Shown in pieces: positions 17,373-41,304 of a stretch of 64,000 nt of DNA. Location of the stretch: assembly GCF_900101675.1 (NCBI RefSeq), contig NZ_FNKG01000002.1, forward strand, positions 143,005 to 207,004, read 5' to 3'. Under the pieces are notes generated by a model. It did not search any database. It was not told where the DNA came from and worked only from the letters and a program-made list of their open reading frames with translations. This DNA comes from Curtobacterium sp. UNCCL20 (lineage in GTDB: Bacteria > Actinomycetota > Actinomycetes > Actinomycetales > Microbacteriaceae). Numbering within the stretch: the first letter of the stretch is position 1; the number at the start of each line of letters is the position of its first letter. The translations under genes and the position numbers were made by a program.

Positions 17373-18451
17373 TCGAGTTCCGTGCCCACGGCAAGCTGTT
17401 CGTCGCGGGCGAGTACGCCGTCGTCGAGCCGGGGCAGCCGTCCGTGCTCATCGCCCTCGATCGTGCGATCACCGCTCGGGTCAGCGAGGGCCACGGCGCC
17501 GGCAGCGTGCACTCCGAGGAGTACGGGCACCTGCCGCTCACCTGGACCCGCGCCGAGGACGGCATCGCGCTCGACACCGAGCACCACCCGTACGACTACG
17601 TGATGGCGACGATCGACCTCGTCGAGAAGCTCCGCGGCGAGCAGGGCATCGCGCCGCGCTTCCACGACCTCCGCATCCACAGCCAGCTCGACGACGCCAG
17701 CGGGCGGAAGTTCGGCCTCGGGTCGTCCGCCGCGGTCACCGTCGCCACGGTCGGCGCGCTCGACCGGTTCTACGGGCTCGGCCTCTCCCAGCGGAAGCGC
17801 TTCCAGGTCGCCCTGCTCGCGACCATCCGGGTGAACCCGCGCGCCTCCGGCGGCGACCTGGCGGCGAGCACCTTCGGCGGCTGGCTGCGCTACAGCGCCC
17901 CGGACCGCGAACGCCTCGCCGCGCAGCTCGACCAGCGCAGCGTGACCGACATCCTCGGTGACGCCGACGCATGGGAGGGCTTCGACGTCCAGCGCCTTCC
18001 GGCGCCCGAGAACCTCGAGCTCCTCGTCGGTTGGACCGGCTCGCCCGCGTCCACCACCAAGCTCGTCGGCGTCGTGCGTCGTCACCGCAACGGCGGGTAC
18101 CAGGCGTTCCTCGACGAGAGCCGGGCCTGCGTCGACGACCTGACCACGGGCCTCCAGACCGGCGACGCGGAGCGCACGCTCGGTGCGCTCCGTCGCGCCC
18201 GCGGGCTGCTGCAACGCCTCGGCGACTCCGTCGGTTCCAAGATCGAGACCGACCGTCTCGCCACCCTGTGCGACGTCGTCGAGGCGGCGGGCGGGGCGGC
18301 GAAGCCGTCGGGCGCCGGCGGCGGCGACTGCGGCATCGCGCTCGTCCCGGCGGACACCGACCTCGCCGGCATCCACCGCGCCTGGGAGGCGCACGACATC
18401 AGACACCTCAGCGTCGCGGTGCAAGCGCCCGAAGGGAGCGTCGATGACTGA
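17369..18451 (+). CDS. mvaK2: Phosphomevalonate kinase
   Basis: 360 residues, GHMP family. It phosphorylates 5-phosphomevalonate. Motifs: H-G-K-L-F-V-A-G-E-Y-A-V-V-E-P-G (motif 1), K-F-G-L-G-S-S-A-A-V-T-V (ATP loop) and P-S-G-A-G-G-G-D-C-G-I-A (motif 3), matching the MvaK2/Erg8 type. The start is a GTG overlapping the mvaD stop, with GGAGGAG 9 bases upstream. The C-terminus overlaps the HMG-CoA reductase start by 8 bases, leaving no room for an isomerase gene here. Confidence 0.93.
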   Translation: MIEFRAHGKLFVAGEYAVVEPGQPSVLIALDRAITARVSEGHGAGSVHSEEYGHLPLTWTRAEDGIALDTEHHPYDYVMATIDLVEKLRGEQGIAPRFHDLRIHSQLDDASGRKFGLGSSAAVTVATVGALDRFYGLGLSQRKRFQVALLATIRVNPRASGGDLAASTFGGWLRYSAPDRERLAAQLDQRSVTDILGDADAWEGFDVQRLPAPENLELLVGWTGSPASTTKLVGVVRRHRNGGYQAFLDESRACVDDLTTGLQTGDAERTLGALRRARGLLQRLGDSVGSKIETDRLATLCDVVEAAGGAAKPSGAGGGDCGIALVPADTDLAGIHRAWEAHDIRHLSVAVQAPEGSVDD

Positions 18452-19508
18452 CCTGCTGACCCCGATCCCCACGAAGTGGGTGGGGCCGATCCGCATCAGC
18501 GGCAACGCCGTGGAGGGCGAGCACGAGGTGCCGCTCGCCACGTACGAGTCGCCCCTCTGGCCGTCCGTCGGCCGCGGTGCCCGCATCTCGCGCATGGTCG
18601 AGGGCGGCATCGTCGCGACCGTCGTCGACGAGCGGATGACCCGCTCGGTGGTCGTCCGTGCGTCCAGCGCCGCGGCCGCGCACATCGCCGCGGGGCAGAT
18701 CCTCGCGCGGCAGGACGACCTCGCCGCGATCGTGTCCGGGCAGAGCCGGTTCGCGAAGCTCATCGAGGTGCACCCGGAGATCGTCGGGGACCTGCTGTTC
18801 CTGCGGTTCGCGTTCACCACGGGCGACGCCTCCGGGCACAACATGGTGACGCAGGCGGCGGACAAGCTGCTGCCCGCGATCCTCGAGTGGCAGCCGGGCC
18901 TCCGCTACGTGTCCGTGTCCGGCAACTTCTGCACCGACAAGAAGGCCACCGCGGTGAACGGTATCCGTGGCCGCGGCCGGAACACCATCGCCGAGATCGT
19001 CATCCCCGGCGAGGTCGTCGAGAAGCGCCTGCGGTCCTCGACCGAGCGCATCGTCGAGCTCAACGTCGCGAAGAACCTCATCGGATCGACGATCGCGGGC
19101 GCCCTCCGTTCCGCGAACGCCCACTACGCGAACATGCTGCTCGGGTTCTACCTCGCCACCGGGCAGGACGCCGCGAACATCGTCGAGGGCTCCCAGGGCA
19201 TCACCTCGGCGGAGAACCGTGACGGCGACCTGTACTTCGCCACCTCGCTCCCGCACCTCATCGTCGGCACGGTCGGCAACGGCAAGGGCGGCGACCTGCC
19301 CGTCGTCGAGGACGCCCTGGTCCGCCTCGGCTGCCGCGAGGACCGCGAACCCGGCGCGAACGCCCGCCGCCTCGCCGCACTGTGCGCCGCGACCGTCCTC
19401 TGCGGGGAGCTCTCGCTGCTCGCCGCCCAGACCAACCCGGGCGAACTGATGGCGGCGCACGTCGCCATGGAACGCCGTGGCACCCGTCCGGCAGGAGGCG
19501 CAGCATGA
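18444..19508 (+). CDS. mvaA: Hydroxymethylglutaryl-CoA reductase, class I-like
   Basis: 354 residues, catalytic domain only with no membrane anchor. It makes mevalonate from HMG-CoA with reduced nicotinamide cofactor, the committed step. Motifs: G-D-A-S-G-H-N-M-V-T-Q (cofactor loop), V-S-G-N-F-C-T-D-K-K-A (substrate and catalytic Lys), and G-T-V-G-N-G-K-G near the end. The length and the N-F-C-T-D-K-K motif fit the class I form seen in Streptomyces mevalonate clusters rather than class II. GAAGGGAG precedes the ATG. Overlaps mvaK2 by 8 bases and mvaS by 4. Confidence 0.94.
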   Translation: MTDLLTPIPTKWVGPIRISGNAVEGEHEVPLATYESPLWPSVGRGARISRMVEGGIVATVVDERMTRSVVVRASSAAAAHIAAGQILARQDDLAAIVSGQSRFAKLIEVHPEIVGDLLFLRFAFTTGDASGHNMVTQAADKLLPAILEWQPGLRYVSVSGNFCTDKKATAVNGIRGRGRNTIAEIVIPGEVVEKRLRSSTERIVELNVAKNLIGSTIAGALRSANAHYANMLLGFYLATGQDAANIVEGSQGITSAENRDGDLYFATSLPHLIVGTVGNGKGGDLPVVEDALVRLGCREDREPGANARRLAALCAATVLCGELSLLAAQTNPGELMAAHVAMERRGTRPAGGAA

Positions 19509-20797: not shown

Positions 20798-21784
20798 TCA
20801 CGCGACGGCGGTCAGGACCTCGCGCTCCAGACGCTGGTAGCTGGTCTCCATGCCCTCGGTCATGCCGGTGGCGAGGATCGCGTCGCGCTGCGCCTCGTCC
20901 GGGTAGGTGACGAGGAGGGTCAGGAGGGTGACACCGTCGACCTCGTCGAACTGCAGGTCGTTGACGTTCGGCGGGAACGGCGCGCCCGTCATCCGTTCCG
21001 TCGTCACCATCCGGCGCTCCGGGTCGACGACGAGGTTCTCGCCCTCGAACCCGAACGCCTCGCCCTCGGTGTCCCCGATCGGCGCCCAGGCGTTGCGGTA
21101 GGACCCGCCGACGACGAGGTCGTTCTCGCACACGGTCATCTCCCACACGTCGGGGCCGAGCAGCCAGCGTCGCATCAGCTCGGTGTCGGTGTGGGCACGC
21201 CAGAGCAGGTGCCGTGGCGCCTCGAACGCACGGGTGATCCGCACGTGGGTCTCGTCGACGACCTCGGTGACGGTGCCTGCGCCGAGCGCGTACTCGCGCA
21301 GGTCGGCGAGTACCCGGTCCAGCTGCCCGAACGCCTGCGTGTAGCCCTCGAGCATGCCCATCTCGAGGAGCTGGTCGAGGCCCGCAGAGGACTCGAACGA
21401 CGTCAGGACGGTGACCCGCGATCCGCCGTCGACGGGCTCGAACGTCAACACCGTCTCGCTCGCGGGCATCGACTCGTCGACGGCGCCGTCCTCCGTCGCG
21501 AACAGGTCGCGGAAGACGATGCGCCGCGGCTCGTCGACCTCGCTGACCTGCCAGACGGACAGGAAAGGCTCGTTCTCCGGGGAGGTCATCCGGTAGTGGG
21601 CCGCGCCGCCGGGACGGAGGTCGAACGACGTGAAGGTGGCGGGGAACCCGGGCGGGCCCCAGAACCGTTCGAGCTGCCGGGGATCGGCGAACGCACCCCA
21701 GAGGCGCTCGACGGGGACGGGGAACTCGGCCACGAGGGTCATCGTGAGTTCCTCGGGGTCGGTGTGGACGGACGTGGTCGGCAT
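20798..21784 (-). CDS. Double SRPBCC (AHSA1-like) domain protein
   Basis: 328 residues made of two SRPBCC/AHSA1-type domains in tandem. The first (about 15-165) has F-P-V-P-V-E-R-L-W-G-A-F-A-D-P; the second (about 175-325) has R-A-F-E-A-P-R-H-L-L-W-R-A-H-T-D. Both carry the W-G-P/L-G-P hydrophobic-pocket motif and end in a long helix. The fold binds hydrophobic ligands; the ligand is unknown. The start overlaps the stop of the ArsR gene (TGATG), the usual ArsR-SRPBCC pair in actinobacteria. Confidence 0.85.
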   Translation of the reverse strand: MPTTSVHTDPEELTMTLVAEFPVPVERLWGAFADPRQLERFWGPPGFPATFTSFDLRPGGAAHYRMTSPENEPFLSVWQVSEVDEPRRIVFRDLFATEDGAVDESMPASETVLTFEPVDGGSRVTVLTSFESSAGLDQLLEMGMLEGYTQAFGQLDRVLADLREYALGAGTVTEVVDETHVRITRAFEAPRHLLWRAHTDTELMRRWLLGPDVWEMTVCENDLVVGGSYRNAWAPIGDTEGEAFGFEGENLVVDPERRMVTTERMTGAPFPPNVNDLQFDEVDGVTLLTLLVTYPDEAQRDAILATGMTEGMETSYQRLEREVLTAVA

Positions 21785-22137
21785 CAGTGGCTCCCGTGGT
21801 CTCGGTGTTCTTCGAGCAGTGCGTCGAGCCGGTCGATCCGGCCGCGCCAGAGGTCCGCGTAGCTGTCGAGCAGACCGCGGACCCGGTCGATCTGGCTCGG
21901 TTCGGCACGCACCATCCGGGTGCGGCCGCGTGGTTCCTTGGTCACGAGTCCTGCTCCTTCGAGGACGGCGACGTGTTTCTGGACGGCGGCGAACGACATT
22001 GCGTACGCGTCCGCCAGCTCGCTCACGGACGCCTCGCCGACGAGGGTGCGACGGAGGATGTCGCGCCTCGTCGCGTCGGCCAGGGCGTGGAAGACCCGGT
22101 CGACCTCGGCGTCACTCAGTTCAATTCGTACAACCAT
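21784..22137 (-). CDS. ArsR-family winged-helix repressor
   Basis: 117 residues. Winged helix with F-H-A-L-A-D-A-T-R-R-D-I-L-R-R-T and recognition helix M-S-F-A-A-V-Q-K-H-V-A-V-L-E-G-A-G-L-V, wing R-G-R-T-R-M-V. No metal-binding Cys motif (no C-x-C), so it is of the non-metal ArsR type coupled to SRPBCC proteins. A CAACC-ATTT-GGTTG dyad covers its own start codon, which suggests autorepression of the two-gene operon. Confidence 0.88.
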   Translation of the reverse strand: MVVRIELSDAEVDRVFHALADATRRDILRRTLVGEASVSELADAYAMSFAAVQKHVAVLEGAGLVTKEPRGRTRMVRAEPSQIDRVRGLLDSYADLWRGRIDRLDALLEEHRDHGSH

Positions 22138-22144
22138 TTGGTTG
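22131..22144. promoter_or_regulatory. Dyad over the arsR-type gene start, likely autoregulatory operator
   Basis: CAACC (22131-22135) and GGTTG (22140-22144) separated by ATTT; the ATG of the regulator lies inside it. Confidence 0.5.
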
Positions 22145-22196
22145 CACGTTACGCGCGGAGGGCGGTGTGCACAAGCCCTTCGGAGTAGAAGAAGTC

Positions 22197-22571
22197 ATGG
22201 GCCAGCTCATCTACGACGGCGAGGTGCTCGACCTCCGCGTCGACGACCGGGCACTGACGCACCTGCAGATCGTGATCGTCAACATGCTCCGTCGCGACCA
22301 CCGCTTCGTGTTCTCGTGGAAGGACGACGTCGTCCACGGTGACGGCCGCAGCAGCATCTGGCTGCACCCGAACGTGAGCCTGCACTTCAAGTTCGGCGGG
22401 AGCCGGGTCCCCTCGATCAACCGCAGCTGGCTCGAGGAGCTCTACCGCGCGGCGACCTCGGGTGCCGGGCTCGTCCTGACACCGGAGCCGGCGGACACGA
22501 GTTCCGGCGAGGACTCGGCGTGGTCGCGGGCCGTGGTGCCGGGCGATGCCGAGGACGACTCTGAGCAGTAG
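22197..22571 (+). CDS. DUF7882-like small protein
   Basis: 124 residues starting M-G-Q-L-I-Y-D-G. Characteristic segments are L-R-V-D-D-R-A-L-T-H-L-Q-I-V-I-V-N-M-L-R-R and F-S-W-K-D-D, then S-I-W-L-H-P-N-V-S-L-H-F-K-F. This matches a short family common in Microbacteriaceae (DUF7882), often mislabelled as ATP-dependent DNA ligase although no ligase motif K-x-D-G is present. The C-terminal 25 residues are acidic and low-complexity. GAAGAAG precedes the ATG. Function unknown; cytoplasmic by composition. Confidence 0.7.
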   Translation: MGQLIYDGEVLDLRVDDRALTHLQIVIVNMLRRDHRFVFSWKDDVVHGDGRSSIWLHPNVSLHFKFGGSRVPSINRSWLEELYRAATSGAGLVLTPEPADTSSGEDSAWSRAVVPGDAEDDSEQ

Positions 22572-22829: not shown

Positions 22830-24635
22830 TCAGTACACGTCGCGGACGTACCGCTTCCCGCGCCGCATGTCGGCGAGGTACGCCTGCGCGTCGTCCTCGC
22901 CGCGCCCGCGCTGGGACGCGATGACGGACAGCAGCGCTGCCTCGACGTCCTTCGCCATCCGCGAGGCGTCGCCGCACACGTACACGTGCCCGCCGTCCTC
23001 GAGCCACGCGTACAGCTCCGGCGCCCGCTCGAGCATCCGGGTCTGCACGTACACCTTCTCGGCCTGGTCGCGTGAGAACGCCAGGTCGAGCCGGTTGAGC
23101 ACGCCCTGCTCCTGCAGCGCGGTGAGCTCGTCCTCGTACACGAAGTCGGTGTCGCGGTGCTGGTCGCCGAAGAACAGCCAGTTCCGACCGGTCGCCCCGG
23201 CCGTTGCACGTTCGTGCAGGAAGCCGCGGAACGGCGCGATGCCGGTACCCGGGCCGATCATGATCATCGGCGCGCTCGGGTCGGCCGGCACCCCGAACGA
23301 CGCGTTCGGCTGCAGGTACACGTCGACGGTGCCGTCGGGCGCGACACGGTCCGCGAGGAACGTCGACGCGACGCCGGCGTACATCCGGTGCGGGTCGCCG
23401 TACCGCACCGACGCGATGGTCAGGTGGATGCGGTCCGGGTGCGCGAGCGGGCTCGACGAGATCGAGTACTGGCGCGCCTGCAGCGGGCGGAGGTTCGGCA
23501 GGAGCTCGTCGAGCCCGGGCGCCGCGGGCCCCGCGTCGCGGAGCAGGTCGAGGACGTCCCGGCCCCACAGCCACCGATCGAGTTCGTGCTTGTCGCCGCG
23601 GGAGACGACGGCGGCGAGCTCGCTCGACGGCGCGCGCTGCACCAGGTCGGCGATGAGGTCCTTCGAGGGCGTCCGGATCTCGCGGTCGGTCCGGAGGACC
23701 TCGGCGATCGGCCGTCCGTCGAGCTCCTCGCCGCCGTTCGCGCCGACGTGCTCGAGCAGCTCGCCGACGAAGACCGCGTCGTTGACGGGCACGACCGCGA
23801 GGGCGTCGCCGGCGGCGTACTCGATGCCGGAGTCGCCGAGGTCGAACTCGTAGTGCCGGATCTCCTTCGCGCTGCGCGGCGAGGAGAGCAGCCGGTTCTC
23901 GACCAGGCGCGACGGGTACGGGTTGCGCTTGTTCCACTGCGACCCCGGTCTGGAGGCACGGTGGGAGCCCGTCCCGCCGGCAGCGGTGGTCCCGGCGGCG
24001 GCACCACTGCCCGTGGTCGCGCCGGGTGTGCCCGTCACCCCCGGTGCGCTGGCGCCTGCTTCAGCGGCGAGGCGGTCGAGGACGGCGGCGGACCACAGGG
24101 CCGCCGGGTCCTCGAAGTCGACGTCGCAGTCCACTCGGTCGTGGATCCTGGTCGCGCCGAGCTGCTCGAACCGGGTGTCGAGGAGCTTGCCGGCCTGGCA
24201 GAACTCGTCGTAGCTCGTGTCGCCGAGCCCGAGGACGGCGTACTGCAGGCCTTCGAGCCGGGGCACGGTGGTGGCCTGGACCGCCTCCCAGAACAGTCCG
24301 GCGTTGTCGGGCATCTCGCCCTCGCCGTACGTCGAGGTGACGACGAGCACGTGCGACATCGCGGCGAGCTGCTCGGGCGTGACGGCGTCGAGCGCGGTAG
24401 CCCGCCCGCCGAGCCCGCGGGCCTTCGCACCGGCGACGAGTTCATCGGCCAGGAACTCGGCGTTGCCGGTCTGCGTGCCGAACAGCACGTCGATCGTCGT
24501 CGTCGGAGCGCCGCCGGAGGCCTTCTTGCCGGCGGCGGCGATGCCCGCGATGAACCCGGCGAGCCAGGACTCCTGCGCGGCGGAGAACGGAGCGTCGACC
24601 GGGATCAGGGACCCGGTCGGGGGGAGCAGGCTCAT
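22830..24635 (-). CDS. CysJ-like diflavin reductase (flavodoxin-FNR fusion)
   Basis: 601 residues. Flavodoxin domain at about 47-190 with the FMN loop F-G-T-Q-T-G-N-A-E, T-Y-G-E-G-E-M-P-D and G-L-G-D-T-S-Y-D-E-F. A low-complexity Gly/Thr/Ala linker (about 200-235) follows, then an FNR module with R-Q-Y-S-I-S-S-S-P (FAD), G-P-G-T-G-I-A-P-F-R-G-F (NADPH), Y-V-C-G-D-A-S-R-M-A-K and a C-terminal R-Y-V-R-D-V-Y. This is the sulfite/nitrate reductase flavoprotein layout. Its ATG overlaps the stop of the GltB-like gene (ATGA), and no sulfite reductase gene is near, so its electron acceptor is probably that protein. Confidence 0.88.
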   Translation of the reverse strand: MSLLPPTGSLIPVDAPFSAAQESWLAGFIAGIAAAGKKASGGAPTTTIDVLFGTQTGNAEFLADELVAGAKARGLGGRATALDAVTPEQLAAMSHVLVVTSTYGEGEMPDNAGLFWEAVQATTVPRLEGLQYAVLGLGDTSYDEFCQAGKLLDTRFEQLGATRIHDRVDCDVDFEDPAALWSAAVLDRLAAEAGASAPGVTGTPGATTGSGAAAGTTAAGGTGSHRASRPGSQWNKRNPYPSRLVENRLLSSPRSAKEIRHYEFDLGDSGIEYAAGDALAVVPVNDAVFVGELLEHVGANGGEELDGRPIAEVLRTDREIRTPSKDLIADLVQRAPSSELAAVVSRGDKHELDRWLWGRDVLDLLRDAGPAAPGLDELLPNLRPLQARQYSISSSPLAHPDRIHLTIASVRYGDPHRMYAGVASTFLADRVAPDGTVDVYLQPNASFGVPADPSAPMIMIGPGTGIAPFRGFLHERATAGATGRNWLFFGDQHRDTDFVYEDELTALQEQGVLNRLDLAFSRDQAEKVYVQTRMLERAPELYAWLEDGGHVYVCGDASRMAKDVEAALLSVIASQRGRGEDDAQAYLADMRRGKRYVRDVY

Positions 24636-27600
24636 GCGGACACCACTTCGGTCGGCGCCTGCGGTGCTCGTCCGGCGATGTCCTCGAGGGCCGCGTTCGC
24701 GAGCAGCTCGTCGAAGCGGGCCTCCCGGACCCGGCCGTCGTTCTTGGCGTTCTGGTGCATGATCCACCCGGTGGTGCCGGGCGCGTCCATGCTGCGGTTG
24801 TTCCGCTGCGTGAGCGCGCGCTTGTAGTCGTCGAGGCGCTTGATCGCGATGAGGGTCGCGAGCTCGTCGTCCGCGAACCGGTCGAGGGTGCCGCGGAGGT
24901 ACTTCACGACGCGCTGCTTCACGAAGAAGTCCTCGGTGAGGATGAGGTTCTTGACCGCCTCGGTCACCCGGGGGTCGTTCGGGCCGGCCGCGCCGGGGAC
25001 CCGCTCGAGTGCGAGGTCCTGCGCGACCCCGAGCACCGTGTACGAGGACAGCAGCGAGAACATGTCGTCGCCCTGGTCCCCGAGCGCCGGTGCGCGGCCG
25101 CCGAGCACGGTGCGCTGGTCGCGGTAGTCGACCTTGAACGCGCGGAGTTTGTCCGTCGCGATCGAGTTCGCCAGCTCGTCGAGCAGCTCGTTCCGGCTGG
25201 CTGCGGCGAGGATCTCGCCGGCGTCCTGGGTGAGGAGGAGCGCGCGCGGCATGCCGACGTACACGTGGGCGCGGGTGGTCTCCCACTCGTCGAGGAGCCG
25301 CTCGGCCAGGGCCGAGCCGGTCGCCTCGAGGTGCCACTCGAGGAGCAGCCGGGCGGCGTCCTCGTGGAAGGCCCCGCGCGCGGTGTCGCTGACCGGGAAC
25401 ACCAGGAGCGAGTCGGTGCTCGCCCGTTCGGTGACCTCGCCGGACGGGTCGTACTGGTACAGGAAGCCGCCGGACATGCCGTTGCCGAGGCCCTTGCCGA
25501 AGGTGCCGAGGTTGAACACGGCACCGCCCGTCATGTACTCGCAGCCGAAGTCGCCGACGCCCTCGACGACCGCAGTCGCCCCGGAGTTGCGGACGGCGAA
25601 CCGGTCGCCGGCCTCACCCTCGACGAAGGTGCGGCCGCCGGTGGCGCCGAACAGCGCGAAGTTGCCGACGAGGACGTTGCCGCCCTGCTCGGCGCTGCCA
25701 CCGCCCGGCGCGCGGACGATGATCCGCCCGCCGCTCTGGCTCTTGCCGACGCCGTCGTTCGCGGTGCCGGTGTGGTCGAGCACGATGCCGTCGTTGGTGA
25801 AGACGCCGTAGGACTGGCCGGCCGACCCCTGCGTGCGGATCGTCACCGCGCCGTCCACCAGCCGGCGGCGGCCCCGGTCGTCGGTCGTCACGGCGGGGAG
25901 GCCCGCCACGTCGTCCGCACCGAGCTCGTGGTTGAGCAGTCGCTCGACGTCGATGCCGAGCTGGCCGCCGACGGACTTGTCGCTGTTGCCGAGCAGCACG
26001 CCGTGCACGAGAACGTGCTCCTGCGCGTGGTCGACGAGGGCCGTCCGGACCCGCTCGAGCAGCGCGTCGTCGGTGTGGAAGTCCTTCTCGAGGTACTCCG
26101 GGTCCGTGACGACCTTCTCGGGCACCTGCGCGAGGAGCGCACGCACGTCGAGACGGCCGACGCTCGCCGGGTGGTCGAGGAGCTGCAGGAGGTCGGTGCG
26201 GCCACGGGCCTCGCGCAGGGAGCGCAGGCCGAGGCGGGCGAGGATCTGCCGCACGTCGTGCGCGATGTTGAGGAGGTACTGCGCGAGCGCACGGGGGTCG
26301 CCCTCGAACGCCTCGGCGTTCGTGGTGAGGCCGGCCGGGCACTTCACGTTGCAGTTCTTCGCCATCACGCAGCCGAGCATCATGAGTGCGGTGGTGCCGA
26401 ACTCGAAGCTGTCGCCACCGAGCAGCGCGCTCGTGACGACGTCCGAGCCGGTCTGGTGCGCGCCGGAGCAGCGGAGCGTGACCTTCTGGCGGAGGCCGTT
26501 CGCGACGAGGGCCTGGTGGACCTCGGCCACGCCGATCTCCGCGGAGCGGCCCGCGTACTTCAGGCTCGTCACCGCCGCGGCTCCGGTGCCGCCGGTGTTC
26601 CCGGCGACGTTGATGACGTCCGCGCCGGCCTTCGCGACGCCGACCGCGATGGTGCCGATGCCCTCGGAGGACACCAGCTTCACGATCACCCGGACCCGGG
26701 CGGCCTTGCAGTCGTGGATGAGCTGCGCGAGGTCCTCGATCGAGTACGTGTCGTGGTGCGGCGGCGGCGAGATGAGCTCCACGCCGGGCGTGCCACCACG
26801 GGCCGCGGCGATGTCCACCGTGACCTTCGGTGCGGGCAGCTGGCCGCCCTCGCCGGGCTTCGCGCCCTGGCCGATCTTGATCTCGAGCTCCTCGAGCATC
26901 GGGTCGGCGAGGTAGCCCGCCCAGATGCCGAACCGGCCCGAGGCGAACTGCTTGATGCGCGAGCCGCGGATGGTGCCGTAGCGGGAGTGGTGCTCGCCGC
27001 CCTCACCGCTGTTCGACATGCCGCCGACCATGTTCGTGCCGTGCGCCACGGCCTCGTGCGCGGTCGCGACGAGTGCACCGTGGCTCATCGCGCCGGACGC
27101 CAGGGTCCGGGTGATCTCGTGCGCCGGCTGGACCTCGTCGAGCGCGACGCTGGCCGGGGCGCTCTCGAGCAGGGCGAGCAGGTCGACCGCGGTGCCGGTG
27201 GCGCGGAGCGTCACCTGGGTCTCGTCGACGGAGTCGACGTCGACCTGGCCGGGGTGCAGCAGCGCGAGCCCGTCCGCGAGGGCCTGGTGGCGCAGTGCAC
27301 CGGTGGTCCCCGTGGACGTGAGCTCCAGGCGGAACCGGGCCGTGCCTCCAGGCAGGTCGTCGGACGACGACGGACGTGAGCCGGACAGCCCGCGCACCGT
27401 GACGCTGGCGTTGCCGCTCGTCGAGAAGCGGCCGAGCTCGCGCGCGAAGTCCTCGGCGGTGTCGGTGCCCGTGACGTCCGCAGGCAGGGCCAGCACGTCG
27501 CGGAGCGCTGCGGGCCGGCGCGACCGCTCGTCGTGCGTGGTCTGCAGGAACGTGACGTAGCCCGGCGTGATGCGGTGTGCGTCGATCTCGGCGTCGCTCA

Positions 27601-30280
27601 GCCGGTCGTACCCGGTGTTCCGGTACGCCGCGTCGGTGATGCCGAACGAGTCGTCGAGCTGCCCGAGCGTGAGCAGGCGCAGCGCATCCGAGTCGCCGGA
27701 GCGCTCGAACGCCGGACGCTCCTCGGTCATGCCGCCGAAGCCGCGGACGCTCGCGACGCCGAACGAGTGCCCGGCGCCGTCGGACCGCTCCTTGAAGAGG
27801 CCGAGCAGGGGCACCTGACCCTCGGAGTCGACCGTGCGGGCGCGCTCGTGCCAGTCCGTCGCCGCCTGCGCGATCCGGGCGAACCCGACGCCGCCGACCG
27901 GTGCCTGCATGTGCGGGAAGACCCGGGCGAACAGGTCGTCACGGGTGTCGAGGTAGTTCGGCTCGAAGAACTCGCCGCCGATGTAGCTCTCCGCCGTGCA
28001 CAGACCGACGCGGCCCATGGTCTTCGCGAGGGCCTTCTCGGCCGCCTTCCGGAACCGCTGCAGCGCGAGGTCGGTCGCGGTCAGCTCGCCGGCAGGTGCC
28101 GGGGCGGCGGGGTACTTCTCCTCCGCACGGAGCCGCGCGGACAGGCTGTACACAGCCGCGGCGCCGAAGCCCAGCGCGGTCGCCACGTGGTGTGACGATG
28201 GCAGCTGACCGGACTCGGCGACCACCGAGACCCGCAGCCGCAGGCCGGTCTCGATGAGTCGCTGGTTCACGGCGGCCACGGCGAGGATCACCGGGAGGGG
28301 CGCGTGCGTCGACGAGACCGCACGGTCGGACAGGACCGCGATGCCACCGGTTCGCTCGGCGAACGCCGCGACATCCTCGGCCAGCTGCTCCGTCGCCGTG
28401 CGGACCGCGTCCGCGTTCGCCTGCTCGTCGCCGAGCACCGGCACGTAGAGCATGTCGAAGCGCTCGAGCGGGACGACGTCCTGGTCGCGCAGGCGCACCA
28501 TGTCGAGGTGTCCGAGCACGGGGGACTGCACGACGAGCTGCCGGCTCGTCGACCCGGTCCCGTCCGGCTTGGCTCCGAGCGCGACACGCATGCTCATGCC
28601 GTCGGCCTCGCGGATCGAGTCGAGCGGCGGGTTCGTCACCTGGGCGAAGCGCTGCGAGAAGTACTTCGCCATGCCGCCCTCGGTGTCGCTCAGGGCGTTG
28701 ATCGCGTTGCCGTAGCCCATCGCCGAGATCCGCTCCGAGCCGTTCTGCAGCATCGGGTCGAGCATGAACCGGAAGCTCTCCTGGTTCAGGGAGTACGCCA
28801 CGTAGCGGCCCGCGAGCGACAGGTCGCCGTCGTAGCCGAGCGTCGACGTGCCGCGCTCGTAGTCCGGCGCGGGCAGGTCGTCCAGGTCCACCCGGGCGGC
28901 GTCGAGCAGCGCGCCGTACGGCTTCCGGGCGGCGAGCATCTCGAGCACCTCGCGGGTGCGCATCAGCGAGCCCGTGCGGTGGTCGACGACGAGCATGCCG
29001 CCGGCCTCGATGCGGCCGCGGTGCACGACCTCGTCGGCGTCGAACGTGACCTGCCCGGCCTCCGACGACACCATCAGGTACTCCGACGTCTGCACGGAGC
29101 GCAGCGGGCGGAGGCCCAGGCGGTCGAGTCGGGCGCCGACCACCTCGCCGTCGCTGAAGATCACGGCCGCGGGGCCGTCGTTCTTCTCCTCGTAGAGCGA
29201 GAAGTACTCGAGCATGTCGCGGACGTCGGGCGTCAGGGTGCGGTCGTTCTCCCACGCCGGCGGCATGAGCGACACCACGGCCTCGACGATCTCGAGCCCG
29301 TCGTCGAACACGCGGCTCTGCAGCGTCTGGTCGAGCCGGCTCGAGTCCGACTGTCCGGGCGGGCGGACGATGCTGCGCGTCCGGGCCCGGGCGAGGGCCT
29401 CGTCCGACAGGCGGTTCTTCCGGTCCGTGTTGAGCTCGCCGTTGTGCGCCATCAGGCGGAACGGCTGCGCCATCGTCGGGTGCGGCTCGGTGTTCGTCGA
29501 GAACCGGGTGTGGAAGTACAGCGTCCGCACCGAGTGGCGCGGGTCGCGCAGGTCCGTGAAGTAGCCGATGACCTCGCCCGAGTTCAGCCGGCCCTTCAGG
29601 ATCTGCGTCCGGGCGCTGAGCGACAGCGGGTACAGGGCGGCGTGCTCGGCACGCTCGGCAGCGGCCTCGCCGTACGACACCGCCTCGATCGCGAGCAGGG
29701 CCCGGTTGGCCGCGGCGTCGACCTCGGTGCGCTCCCAGTCCTCGGGCGCGCGGAAGACCCACTGCACGATCGGCAGCTGGTACTGCTCGGCCTCGGGACG
29801 CGCGACGGAGTGGTCCACGGGGACGTCGCGGACCAGCAGCAGTTCGAGGCCCTGCGCGGCGATCGCGTCGGTGACGGTCTGTTCGGCACGGGCGCGGTCG
29901 TCAGTGCCGCTCTGACCTGCGCCGGTCGGCCCTGCGCCGGTCGCCCCTGCGCCGGTCGGCACGAAGCAGTTCGCGACGCCGAAGTGGCCGGCGCGCAGGT
30001 CCTCGCCCGTGATCGCGCTGAAGAACTCCACCGACAGGTCGATGCTCACGCCCGCGCCGTCGCCGACGCCCTCAGCGGACTTGCCGCCGCGGTGGGGGAT
30101 CGCGCAGAGCGCTTCGTCGCCCTTGCGGATGACGTCGTGGCTGGGCGTCCCGTCGAGTCGGGTGATGAAACCGACGCCGCAGTCGCTCGATTCGCGGGCA
30201 GGGTCGTAGAGACCGAAGGAGGTGGGGTTCACGTGCGGGTCCAGAGGGGGCGTTGCCGGCAGCGGACGGCCAGGCTGCAT
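24632..30280 (-). CDS. gltB: GltB-like glutamate synthase large subunit, long variant
   Basis: 1882 residues; ordinary GltB is near 1500. A 33-residue propeptide precedes Cys34 (S-S-D-C-G-V-G-F), the class II glutaminase nucleophile. The FMN domain starts near M1065 (M-S-H-G-A-L) with Q-G-A-K-P-G-E-G-G-Q-L-P and I-S-P-P-P-H-H-D. Iron-sulfur ligands are C1304, C1310 and C1314: C-x5-C-x3-C where GltB normally has C-x5-C-x4-C. The usual D-G-G-T-G-A-S-P is N-T-G-G-T-G-A-A-A. The GxGxG beta-helix runs to about 1670, then an extra 205 residues follow. No gltD; a diflavin reductase follows at ATGA. It should combine glutamine hydrolysis with 2-oxoacid amination. Confidence 0.85.
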   Translation of the reverse strand: MQPGRPLPATPPLDPHVNPTSFGLYDPARESSDCGVGFITRLDGTPSHDVIRKGDEALCAIPHRGGKSAEGVGDGAGVSIDLSVEFFSAITGEDLRAGHFGVANCFVPTGAGATGAGPTGAGQSGTDDRARAEQTVTDAIAAQGLELLLVRDVPVDHSVARPEAEQYQLPIVQWVFRAPEDWERTEVDAAANRALLAIEAVSYGEAAAERAEHAALYPLSLSARTQILKGRLNSGEVIGYFTDLRDPRHSVRTLYFHTRFSTNTEPHPTMAQPFRLMAHNGELNTDRKNRLSDEALARARTRSIVRPPGQSDSSRLDQTLQSRVFDDGLEIVEAVVSLMPPAWENDRTLTPDVRDMLEYFSLYEEKNDGPAAVIFSDGEVVGARLDRLGLRPLRSVQTSEYLMVSSEAGQVTFDADEVVHRGRIEAGGMLVVDHRTGSLMRTREVLEMLAARKPYGALLDAARVDLDDLPAPDYERGTSTLGYDGDLSLAGRYVAYSLNQESFRFMLDPMLQNGSERISAMGYGNAINALSDTEGGMAKYFSQRFAQVTNPPLDSIREADGMSMRVALGAKPDGTGSTSRQLVVQSPVLGHLDMVRLRDQDVVPLERFDMLYVPVLGDEQANADAVRTATEQLAEDVAAFAERTGGIAVLSDRAVSSTHAPLPVILAVAAVNQRLIETGLRLRVSVVAESGQLPSSHHVATALGFGAAAVYSLSARLRAEEKYPAAPAPAGELTATDLALQRFRKAAEKALAKTMGRVGLCTAESYIGGEFFEPNYLDTRDDLFARVFPHMQAPVGGVGFARIAQAATDWHERARTVDSEGQVPLLGLFKERSDGAGHSFGVASVRGFGGMTEERPAFERSGDSDALRLLTLGQLDDSFGITDAAYRNTGYDRLSDAEIDAHRITPGYVTFLQTTHDERSRRPAALRDVLALPADVTGTDTAEDFARELGRFSTSGNASVTVRGLSGSRPSSSDDLPGGTARFRLELTSTGTTGALRHQALADGLALLHPGQVDVDSVDETQVTLRATGTAVDLLALLESAPASVALDEVQPAHEITRTLASGAMSHGALVATAHEAVAHGTNMVGGMSNSGEGGEHHSRYGTIRGSRIKQFASGRFGIWAGYLADPMLEELEIKIGQGAKPGEGGQLPAPKVTVDIAAARGGTPGVELISPPPHHDTYSIEDLAQLIHDCKAARVRVIVKLVSSEGIGTIAVGVAKAGADVINVAGNTGGTGAAAVTSLKYAGRSAEIGVAEVHQALVANGLRQKVTLRCSGAHQTGSDVVTSALLGGDSFEFGTTALMMLGCVMAKNCNVKCPAGLTTNAEAFEGDPRALAQYLLNIAHDVRQILARLGLRSLREARGRTDLLQLLDHPASVGRLDVRALLAQVPEKVVTDPEYLEKDFHTDDALLERVRTALVDHAQEHVLVHGVLLGNSDKSVGGQLGIDVERLLNHELGADDVAGLPAVTTDDRGRRRLVDGAVTIRTQGSAGQSYGVFTNDGIVLDHTGTANDGVGKSQSGGRIIVRAPGGGSAEQGGNVLVGNFALFGATGGRTFVEGEAGDRFAVRNSGATAVVEGVGDFGCEYMTGGAVFNLGTFGKGLGNGMSGGFLYQYDPSGEVTERASTDSLLVFPVSDTARGAFHEDAARLLLEWHLEATGSALAERLLDEWETTRAHVYVGMPRALLLTQDAGEILAAASRNELLDELANSIATDKLRAFKVDYRDQRTVLGGRAPALGDQGDDMFSLLSSYTVLGVAQDLALERVPGAAGPNDPRVTEAVKNLILTEDFFVKQRVVKYLRGTLDRFADDELATLIAIKRLDDYKRALTQRNNRSMDAPGTTGWIMHQNAKNDGRVREARFDELLANAALEDIAGRAPQAPTEVVSA
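29917..29961 (-). repeat. Three 15-bp tandem units in gltB
   Basis: CTGCGCCGGTCGGCC-type unit repeated three times with single-base changes, in frame, adding T-G-A-G repeats near residue 110 of the GltB-like protein. This lies in the amidotransferase domain, in a loop not conserved in the family. Confidence 0.85.
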
Positions 30281-39493: not shown

Positions 39494-39517
39494 CTGTGGG
39501 TGTCGACACTAGGCCAC

Positions 39518-40438
39518 ATGAACGCCGTCCTCTACCTCCTCGTCGCCCTCACCTGGGGCTCGAGCTTCCTGTTCGCGAAGATCGGGCTCGACGGGCTCGG
39601 ACCGCAGCAGGTCGCCACCGTCCGGACCGTGCTCGGAGCCGTGACGCTCGTGGTGATCCTCCTGGCGACCCGGCTTCGCTGGCCGCGGGAGCCGCGTGTG
39701 TGGGGGCACCTGCTCGTGGTGTCGGTGTTCCTCAACGCGGTGCCGTCGTCGCTGATGGCCTGGGCGGAGCAGACGGTCCCGTCCGGGCTCGCGAGCATCT
39801 ACAACGCGACGACGCCGATCATGACGCTGGCGGCGCTCGCCGTGCTCGTCCCGACCGAGAAGCTCCGGGGCCGACAGGTGGTCGGGATCGTGGTCGGCAT
39901 CGTCGGCGTGCTCGTCCTGGTCGGGCCGTGGGACGTCCTGGGCGACCCGGCGGTGCTGGCGAGCGTCCCCGGGCAGGTCGCGTTGCTCGGGATGACCGCG
40001 TGCTACGGCATCGGGCTCGCCTACCTCCGGCGGGTGGCCGTCACCAGTTCGTACGACCCGGTCACGCTCGCCACGGTGCAGCTGACGCTCGCGGCCGGGC
40101 TGCTCCTGGCGGTCGCGCCAGTCATCGCCACCGGTCCGGTGCAGTTGGACTGGAGGATCGTGGCTGCGATGGCCGCACTGGGGTGCGTCGGCACGGGGCT
40201 GGCCTACGCGTGGAACACCCGGCTGGTGCAGGCGTGGGGCGCGGGTCGCGCGTCGACGGTCACCTACCTGACGCCGGTGGTCGGGGTGGTGCTCGGGGTG
40301 CTCGTCCTCGGCGAGCGGGTGCGCTGGAACGAACCGGTGGGTGGACTCGTGGTGCTGCTCGGCATCGCGCTCGCGTCCGGGGTGCTCACCGGCAGCCGAC
40401 GACCCGGTCGGCGGGGCACCCGTACGCTGGCCGGATGA
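39518..40438 (+). CDS. EamA-family (DMT) transporter
   Basis: 306 residues, ten TM helices in two EamA repeats. Family marks include A-L-T-W-G-S-S-F-L-F-A-K in TM1 and the second-repeat end L-G-E-R-V-R-W-N-E-P-V-G-G. Probably exports a metabolite or amino-acid-like compound. Starts 70 bases from the LysR gene in divergent orientation; the stop overlaps the UbiA start (ATGA), so the two membrane proteins are co-translated. Substrate unknown. Confidence 0.87.
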   Translation: MNAVLYLLVALTWGSSFLFAKIGLDGLGPQQVATVRTVLGAVTLVVILLATRLRWPREPRVWGHLLVVSVFLNAVPSSLMAWAEQTVPSGLASIYNATTPIMTLAALAVLVPTEKLRGRQVVGIVVGIVGVLVLVGPWDVLGDPAVLASVPGQVALLGMTACYGIGLAYLRRVAVTSSYDPVTLATVQLTLAAGLLLAVAPVIATGPVQLDWRIVAAMAALGCVGTGLAYAWNTRLVQAWGAGRASTVTYLTPVVGVVLGVLVLGERVRWNEPVGGLVVLLGIALASGVLTGSRRPGRRGTRTLAG

Positions 40439-41304
40439 CCCCTCGTCCGGACCGTTCGGTACCGGTCCTGCTGCTGGCGTCGTCCCACCCCGGGCCGACG
40501 GTCACCGTGACGGTGCTCGCGGCCGTGATCGCCGCCGCGGTCGGACACCCGCTGTGGCTCGTCGTGCTCGTCGCCCTGACCGTGGTGGCCGGGCAGCTCT
40601 CCATCGGGCTGGCGAACGACTGGATCGACGCCGATCGGGATCGTGCGGTGGGTCGATCGGACAAGCCGGTGGCGCAGGGGCTCATCGCGGTGTCGACCGT
40701 CCGGGCGGCGGCGTTCGGGACCGCCGTGGCGGCGATCGTTCTCTCCGTGTTCCTCGGCCCGGTCGCGGCTGTGGCGCACACCGTGCTCGTCGCCGCAGGG
40801 TGGGCCTACGACGCCGGACTGAAGCGGACGGTGTGGTCCGTCGTGCCGTTCGTCGTCGCGTTCGGGCTGCTCCCGGTCGTGGCGGTGTCAGCCGGGTCGG
40901 ACGGGCAGTGGCCGGCGTGGTGGGCGCTGGCGACCGGAGCAGTGTTCGGCGTCGCCATCCACTGCACGAACGTCCTGCCGGACCTGGTCGACGACGCCGC
41001 CACCGGGGTCCGCGGCTTCCCGCACCGGCTCGGGCTCCGCGGTGCCGGTGCCACCGCGTTCGGGGCGCTCGTCGTCGCGGCGCTGCTCGTGCTCGGCGGG
41101 CAGCTGCTCGGGGACGATCCCGTCCGGGGCGGCGGGGTGGCGCTCGCCGTCGTCGGGACACTCGTGGTGGTCGTCCTCGCGGCGCTGGGGATCCGGCTCG
41201 TGCTCGCCGGACGAGCCTCGCGGACGCTGTTCCGGCTCGTCATCGCGTCGTCGCTCGTGCTCGTCGTCGAGCTGGGGCTCGCCGGCGCGCGCCTCGTGGC
41301 CTGA
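40435..41304 (+). CDS. UbiA-family prenyltransferase
   Basis: 289 residues, about eight TM helices. First Asp-rich motif N-D-W-I-D-A-D-R-D (N61-D69) and second D-L-V-D-D-A (near 183) bind the prenyl diphosphate-magnesium complex. The P-V-A-Q-G stretch follows the first motif as usual. It transfers a prenyl chain to an aromatic or related acceptor in the membrane. Coupled to the EamA gene and convergent with the FAD monooxygenase gene; a shared pathway is possible but the acceptor cannot be read. Confidence 0.87.
   Translation: MTPRPDRSVPVLLLASSHPGPTVTVTVLAAVIAAAVGHPLWLVVLVALTVVAGQLSIGLANDWIDADRDRAVGRSDKPVAQGLIAVSTVRAAAFGTAVAAIVLSVFLGPVAAVAHTVLVAAGWAYDAGLKRTVWSVVPFVVAFGLLPVVAVSAGSDGQWPAWWALATGAVFGVAIHCTNVLPDLVDDAATGVRGFPHRLGLRGAGATAFGALVVAALLVLGGQLLGDDPVRGGGVALAVVGTLVVVVLAALGIRLVLAGRASRTLFRLVIASSLVLVVELGLAGARLVA

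Follow-up and report, generated by a model that had tools for sequence, protein, structure and literature searches.

The window analysed here, a stretch of 64,000 nucleotides from the genome of Curtobacterium sp. UNCCL20, contains a pair of overlapping genes that very probably encodes a distinct class of NADPH-dependent glutamate synthase, made of two subunits, with a diflavin reductase in place of GltD. Glutamate synthase is a central entry of ammonia into metabolism. In the accessible parts of PMC8097209, the forms of this enzyme are given as GltBD, the ferredoxin-dependent enzyme, the fused eukaryotic NADH enzyme and an archaeal split form; a diflavin form is absent from that list, and the word 'diflavin' is found nowhere in the main text as accessible. 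Likewise, none of the titles and abstract openings searched, all from CC-licensed PMC literature, describes a diflavin-coupled glutamate synthase.

The host genome (3.85 Mb, 6 contigs) is 99.95% complete. The features of the pair are collected in Table 1, where 'df' is a label of this analysis. The junction of the two genes reads GCATGAGC, and its letters ATGA are common to the stop of the large gene and the start of the reductase gene, as the first-pass annotation of this DNA had said. Of the 81 reductases that were located in full, 56 show a 4-nt overlap when the first start codon is taken. The same annotation had reported that gltD is missing. This is true of the locus but not of the genome, since contig C3 carries a canonical gltB with an overlapping gltD, which score above the NCBIfam cut-offs (1630 versus 1047 bits and 679 versus 447.7, respectively). 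The Curtobacterium pair is probably an accessory isozyme beside gltBD. Also in the window, just beyond df-reductase, a DUF7882-domain protein (21630-22571, +) is encoded at the place where other lineages carry a HemS-like gene, and an HMG-CoA reductase (18183-19508, +) and a UbiA-family prenyltransferase (39496-41304, +) may indicate that this actinobacterium has a mevalonate route.

Table 1. Features of the df gene pair, in positions of the window
Feature	Position	Strand	Remark
df-GltB, GltB-like large subunit	24632..30280	-	1882 aa, ATG start
GATase_2, glutaminase domain, residues 34-456	28913..30181	-	Pfam
Glu_syn_central, central domain, residues 493-773	27962..28804	-	Pfam; Met521 aligns with A. 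brasilense Met479
Enlarged linker, central to FMN domain; insertions within residues 863-1038	27167..27694	-	Alignment
Glu_synthase, FMN/synthase domain, residues 1014-1352	26225..27241	-	Pfam
Loop GNTGGTGAAA, residues 1227-1236	26573..26602	-	Canonical GGTGASP: SP replaced by AA
C-x5-C-x3-C cluster motif, Cys1304/1310/1314	26339..26371	-	
GXGXG beta-helix domain, residues 1466-1628	25397..25885	-	Pfam
Family-specific C-terminal extension, about residues 1683-1882	24635..25234	-	Candidate docking region
ATGA overlap, df-GltB stop / df-reductase start	24632..24635	-	Translational coupling
df-reductase, NADPH diflavin (FMN/FAD) reductase	22830..24635	-	601 aa; CysJ-like, outside the CysJ group
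Flavodoxin (FMN) domain of df-reductase	24117..24488	-	Pfam Flavodoxin_1
FAD-binding domain of df-reductase	23358..23933	-	Pfam FAD_binding_1
NADPH-binding domain of df-reductase	22941..23261	-	Pfam NAD_binding_1; SRDQ..K.YVQ motif at residue 521

Relatives were collected from species genomes. The best 80 of at least 586 confirmed relatives, a number that may include canonical GltB, were kept, and together with 4 plasmid records they make up 84 loci. The plasmid matches listed number 40, of which nine are 60-69% identical over the full length and 31 are at 36% or below. In each of the 80 kept relatives (the best 80 of at least 586), which belong to Actinomycetota and Pseudomonadota, the reductase lies directly downstream of df-GltB, including two loci (L012 and L036) where the contig ends inside the reductase. 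Moreover, the large gene is present in 52 of 66 Curtobacterium genomes, although broken or partial in a few. Because all kept relatives have this gene order and these Curtobacterium genomes have the large gene, the pair is due neither to chance nor to the misassembly that the first-pass annotation had considered. An ordinary divergent GltB with a CysJ-like gene next to it by accident, or an artefact of assembly, would fit the GltB domain order and the source annotations of the large protein, which are forms of 'glutamate synthase'; conserved pairing over two phyla already refutes it, a separate group in trees and a family-wide signature also speak against it, and its probability is negligible.

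In the tree of FMN domains, a single group (92/88) unites the 23 df rows, next to 8 canonical rows (95/92), a position that carries a long-branch warning, and five short-type rows fall outside the df and canonical group. Within the df group, Actinomycetota and Pseudomonadota are intermixed on short branches. The distribution of the pair is patchy: it was found in 3 of 396 sampled Actinomycetota genomes and in 7 of the 295 genomes in the GTDB family of P. agglomerans. The df pair is a mobile family. When the first 3900 bases of the df gene labelled E. ludwigii were compared with E. coli assemblies, no near DNA match was found; the record in question, Enterobacter ludwigii EnVs2 (L084, genome G049), is placed in the genus of P. 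agglomerans, and its name is probably wrong. When the conserved neighbours of df loci were clustered, most clusters reflected local synteny, and a small one (representative L065) corresponds to the HemS-like gene.

Pfam recognizes the four GltB domains in df-GltB, in GltB order, on a single protein whose length of 1882 residues agrees with the first-pass annotation; the split or short GltS type (about 440-610 aa), with a separate FMN domain, is a different arrangement. Against NCBIfam NF008730 the protein scores 1021 bits, narrowly below the cut-off of 1047. The cysteines 1304, 1310 and 1314 do have the C-x5-C-x3-C spacing described for them, and the alignment confirms an extra C-terminus of about 200 residues beyond the canonical end. 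As to the loop said to be altered where D-G-G-T-G-A-S-P is expected, SP is indeed replaced by AA; the change is small, however, with GGTGA kept, and the GN found in place of HD is the same in the canonical A. brasilense enzyme. For the last 183 residues, Pfam gives no match at E up to 0.01, and a family profile built on them has no PDB match at E up to 1.

The C-x5-C-x3-C motif and the GGTGAA loop are present in all 84 related loci (80 kept relatives and 4 plasmid records). Among 18 reference loci, C-x5-C-x3-C occurs in none and the C-x5-C-x4-C [3Fe-4S] motif of GltB, which df-GltB does not have, occurs in 13, that is, in every protein with a cluster motif; the five loci with no cluster motif are all of the 440-residue short type. 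In an alignment of 37 C-terminal halves, no cysteine other than Cys1304, Cys1310 and Cys1314 is invariant, which is consistent with one cluster. The catalytic positions are equally constant. The N-terminal Cys nucleophile and the oxyanion HNGE, both typical of GltB, are found in 84 of 84 members; from the alignment, Cys34 is expected to be the N-terminal nucleophile once a 33-residue propeptide has been removed. Eight residues (Cys34, Arg259, Asn280, Met521, Lys1141, Gln1147, Arg1161 and Glu1182) are identical in all 84 members and are the same in the canonical GltB of E. coli and of the host itself. Cys34 aligns with the glutaminase nucleophile, Arg259 and Asn280 with residues of the glutamine site, and the last four with residues of the synthase site. 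For Met521, we rely on the role given for A. brasilense Met479 in the accessible part of PMC8097209.

The Pfam matches of the window's df-reductase are flavin and nucleotide domains only. Each of four motifs, namely the FMN loop, R-x-Y-S of the FAD site, GPGTG-APFR and the NADPH motif SR...K-Y-VQ, is present in the 81 reductases located in full, 65 of which also match a stricter FMN pattern; between 3 and 7 cysteines were counted in each of the 23 proteins checked. With 560 bits, the protein stays below the CysJ cut-off of TIGR01931 (668 bits), and in the reductase tree four CysJ rows stand apart (100/100), while the 23 df rows join two further Mycobacterium diflavin proteins (96/94). One such second diflavin reductase is encoded in the Mycobacterium df locus L064 (5140-6741, -), where it lies on the opposite strand, some 3 kb upstream of df-GltB; it is 46% identical to the df reductase and groups near it in the tree, and a similar one is present in L066.

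A partner for a CysJ was also not found in the host: the NIR_SIR hemoprotein domain (PF01077), expected in CysI, has no match in the window's genome (11 of 14 in the control), and none in 64 of 66 Curtobacterium genomes, this one included; the two others have it. Assimilatory sulfite reduction and siroheme nitrite reduction thus seem to be absent from most of Curtobacterium.

The strongest evidence on function comes from Pantoea, taken here as the GTDB genus that includes P. agglomerans, with 61 genomes. Fifty-one of these have only df-GltB (3 with the gene in pieces), nine have only canonical GltB, none has both, and one (G379), a reduced genome with a broken 33% GltD match, has neither. The partners follow the same division. 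Canonical GltD (83-87% identity) is found in exactly the nine genomes with canonical GltB and in none of the 51 df genomes, and df-reductase (84-100% identity) in exactly those 51. In six of the 51, there is a GltD-like match of 64-66% within a frame of 656-701 residues, a length at which it is probably an AegA/YgfT-like protein. The gene order is arcB, df-gltB, df-reductase, sspB in six Pantoea df loci, and arcB, gltB, gltD, sspB in two canonical ones, so that both pairs occupy the same site; E. coli has arcB and gltBD in this order too, with further genes before sspB. Exact segregation and a common site between arcB and sspB imply that one pair replaced the other as a whole, either df for gltBD or gltBD for df.

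Outside this genus, coexistence is frequent. Six of the 7 df genomes in the GTDB family of P. agglomerans are without canonical GltB, and one, the enterobacterial G136, has both. For 49 of the 84 loci the genome was searched for canonical GltB, which 40 of these 49 pair-bearing genomes had; the nine others are six enterobacterial genomes, one Streptomyces and two MAGs (one with canonical-like fragments). Given these 40 genomes and G136, the pair is not the sole GOGAT in such hosts.

Could the large subunit draw its electrons from elsewhere? It might be a glutamate synthase fed by ferredoxin, flavodoxin or a distant GltD, and the reductase might serve a sulfite reductase or a HemS-like heme protein: CysJ is the best-scoring solved relative of df-reductase, a HemS-like gene comes after the reductase in 33 of 84 loci, and a flavodoxin gene adjoins it in Rhodococcus (L058). 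However, we consider this improbable. A distant GltD, a possibility left by the first-pass annotation, is rejected for the Pantoea genus, where the 51 pair-bearing genomes lack the canonical protein. Sulfite reductase as the partner, raised in the same place, is rejected as well, since the window's genome has no NIR_SIR protein and since a separate CysJ-like match exists in all 61 Pantoea-genus genomes (two in pieces). In the 51 df genomes this second diflavin match is 40-45% identical where intact (G048 and G371 have pieces), and the two such proteins checked, from G044 and G396, group with E. coli CysJ. Furthermore, no HemS-like gene is present in the Pantoea (6) and Curtobacterium (17) loci with enough downstream sequence, and df-reductase segregates exactly with df-GltB.

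Genetic data are available for one Pantoea species. According to the accessible part of PMC12364357, P. ananatis AJ13355 has no close homologs of the E. coli GOGAT, its putative gltB (PAJ_RS19710) is 64% identical to a large subunit from A. tumefaciens, and knockout of this gene causes glutamate auxotrophy, a result for which that paper cites Hara 2012 and which is therefore second-hand. Between Pantoea and Agrobacterium, df-type proteins share 68-70% identity (two other Pantoea species) and canonical GltB proteins 46%. The P. ananatis gene, with a reported identity a little below the former range, is therefore almost surely of the df type.

The gene swap, the common arcB-sspB site and the reported auxotrophy together make it very probable that the pair is a real NADPH glutamate synthase, converting glutamine, 2-oxoglutarate and NADPH to two glutamates, and hence a distinct class with the same reaction rather than a new reaction. 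The proposal of a distinct class with a diflavin reductase for GltD, made in the first-pass annotation, thus gains from the adjacency in all 80 kept relatives (best 80 of at least 586), the separate tree group, the exclusive distribution in Pantoea (51, 9 and 0 genomes) and the P. ananatis knockout phenotype. Its further suggestion of another amino acceptor fares badly. An enzyme that aminates another 2-oxoacid, or yields another product, might explain the changed GGTGA-AA loop and cluster spacing as well as the presence of canonical gltB in 40 of the 49 hosts searched. Yet the residues that serve as 2-oxoglutarate ligands or gate are invariant in all 84 members, no large GltB-type protein other than df-GltB was found in 51 Pantoea-genus genomes, and the gltB mutant is reported to require glutamate (PMC12364357, accessible part). 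Another amino acceptor is therefore unlikely, and we give this family of explanations very little probability.

Domains, active-site residues, conserved pairing and gene swap are established from sequence, and the following scheme for the glutamate synthase reaction builds on them. Glutamine would be hydrolysed at Cys34 of the large subunit, and the ammonia would pass to 2-oxoglutarate at the large-subunit FMN site, giving two glutamates. NADPH would reduce the FAD of the downstream diflavin reductase, from which electrons would travel through the flavodoxin-type FMN to the three-cysteine cluster, presumably [3Fe-4S], and on to the large-subunit FMN. The reductase would thereby replace GltD together with its two [4Fe-4S] clusters, and the two proteins may form a complex in which the C-terminal extension serves for docking.

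Among known systems, the closest is GltB/GltD (A. brasilense 1ea0, 2vdc and 6s6x; B. subtilis 7mfm), with which the pair shares domain order, N-terminal Cys and FMN/synthase core. df-GltB is 36-38% identical to canonical GltB of E. coli and of the host, and the reaction is probably the same. In contrast, its partner is a diflavin reductase and not a [4Fe-4S] subunit such as GltD, and df-GltB itself differs by C-x5-C-x3-C, the C-terminal extension of about 200 residues and the enlarged linker. The ferredoxin-dependent enzyme (1ofd, 1llw) also has a homologous large protein with a 3-Cys cluster and no GltD, but the df type has a co-encoded NADPH reductase in 80 of 80 kept loci (the best 80 of at least 586), and in the alignment the cluster motif of 1llw has an additional residue between Cys2 and Cys3. 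CysJ (TIGR01931; 6efv, 1ddg) has the flavodoxin-FAD-NADPH layout of df-reductase, which is nevertheless below the cut-off, in a separate tree group, and in a host where no sulfite reductase hemoprotein was found. Tan et al. reportedly described in 2020 a diflavin-containing monomeric nitrate reductase; to judge from the title, it also combines a nitrogen-assimilation enzyme with a diflavin module, whereas its reaction is different and it is monomeric. Finally, the P. ananatis AJ13355 gltB (PAJ_RS19710), almost surely of the same family, is reported to be the physiological GOGAT, and the account in the accessible part of PMC12364357 mentions neither a reductase nor a separate class.

The question arises as to what such an enzyme is for. 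Canonical GltBD contains a [3Fe-4S] cluster plus two [4Fe-4S] clusters (PMC8097209, accessible part). With the reductase in place of GltD, the df enzyme would therefore carry about 3 iron atoms versus about 11, by simple count. The 420 bp upstream of the Cys1 codon were scanned for iron boxes, with up to 5 mismatches of 19 allowed for DtxR/IdeR. The consensus patterns used, for DtxR/IdeR, RirA, Irr and others, are those that we assume for these regulators.

A DtxR/IdeR-like box was found upstream of 19 of 59 actinobacterial df-gltB genes, the rows being related and not independent events. Control windows taken from the same loci matched in 6 of 3227 cases, 30 rounds of dinucleotide shuffling gave 0 matches, and 60 palindromic permutations of the box gave 0.30 on average (maximum 6). 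Of the canonical gltB genes in 28 actinobacterial genomes, none has an upstream box at 5 mismatches or fewer, and 3 have one at 6. The sites lie mostly 150-215 bp upstream, in 11 of 17 Streptomyces rows, 2 of 2 Tsukamurella, 1 of 4 Mycobacterium, 1 of 2 Corynebacterium, 1 of 2 Microbacterium-type, and one row each of Nocardia, Micropruina and an unclassified actinomycete (in these counts L020, 'Actinobacteria bacterium', is placed with Streptomyces, and L047, 'Microbacteriaceae bacterium', with Curtobacterium). Curtobacterium has no such box at up to 5 mismatches in its 19 rows, the window among them, and the best site in the window has 7 of 19, so that the frequency among the other actinobacterial rows is 19 of 40. 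All 19 Curtobacterium rows, and none of the 65 others, have instead the palindrome GGTATACC, which is possibly a genus-specific operator; in the window it precedes the start codon at 30280 by 91 bp.

Outside Actinomycetota, the RirA-like pattern TGA-N9-TCA precedes 10 of 18 alphaproteobacterial df genes, compared with 9.9% among 1050 control windows and none of 10 canonical genes; this evidence is weaker because the pattern is short. In the same 18 rows, no Irr box was found at 3 mismatches or fewer, and at 5 mismatches there is an excess, since 9 rows match, against 18% of the control windows and 3 of the 10 canonical genes. Over all 84 rows, Fur boxes number 0 (shuffled mean 0.25), Pantoea included, and there is no signal for sigma-54 (5 versus 8.8 shuffled) or for OxyR/SoxR-like sites (3 versus 3.3). 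A loose GlnR pattern occurs in 78 of 84 rows, above the shuffles (mean 66, maximum 71) and too loose to read; GlnR may exert nitrogen control on df-gltB.

A third gene bears on the same question. Directly after the reductase, a HemS-like match at E 1e-6 or better is found in 33 of 84 loci (only 27 residues in L059), while 47 loci have none, although more than 1.5 kb of sequence follows the reductase there. In 31 of 32 cases traced, the frame starts between -32 and +53 nt from the reductase stop, taking the most upstream start. Pfam HemS is matched at E 0.01 or better by 24 of 25 aligned third-gene proteins, and their profile matches solved HemS/heme-degrading proteins with E down to 6e-33; ten members gave no match in NCBIfam. 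The HemS-like third protein (for example L064 17152-17985; L016-L087) has a mean column identity of 39%, with two cysteines near the N-terminus, Cys2 and Cys8 (L064 numbering), and a few other residues invariant in 25 rows, and may be a distinct HemS subfamily. Siderophore uptake genes are close to the df locus of Ketogulonicigenium.

The DtxR/IdeR-like boxes and the HemS-like third gene suggest an iron-sparing isozyme. Whether this is the function of the family as a whole we regard as evenly balanced, because Curtobacterium and Pantoea have neither iron box nor HemS-like gene; in these two genera, the pair may be under another kind of control, or may be a housekeeping enzyme. If the iron-sparing function does hold, the enzyme would be induced by iron starvation in many actinobacteria and some rhizobia through DtxR/IdeR- and RirA-like boxes, would often share an operon with a HemS-like heme-handling protein, and would maintain ammonia assimilation under iron scarcity; it would have spread horizontally across phyla and wholly replaced gltBD in Pantoea and relatives.

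The finding changes how to annotate gene pairs that at present carry the names 'glutamate synthase-related protein' and 'sulfite reductase subunit alpha'. The df pair would represent a widespread further form of glutamate synthase, with a flavin-only electron donor, and as such a natural means to test the purpose of the two [4Fe-4S] clusters in GltD. If the link to iron is true, nitrogen assimilation would join the processes that are re-equipped with flavin-based versions under iron shortage.
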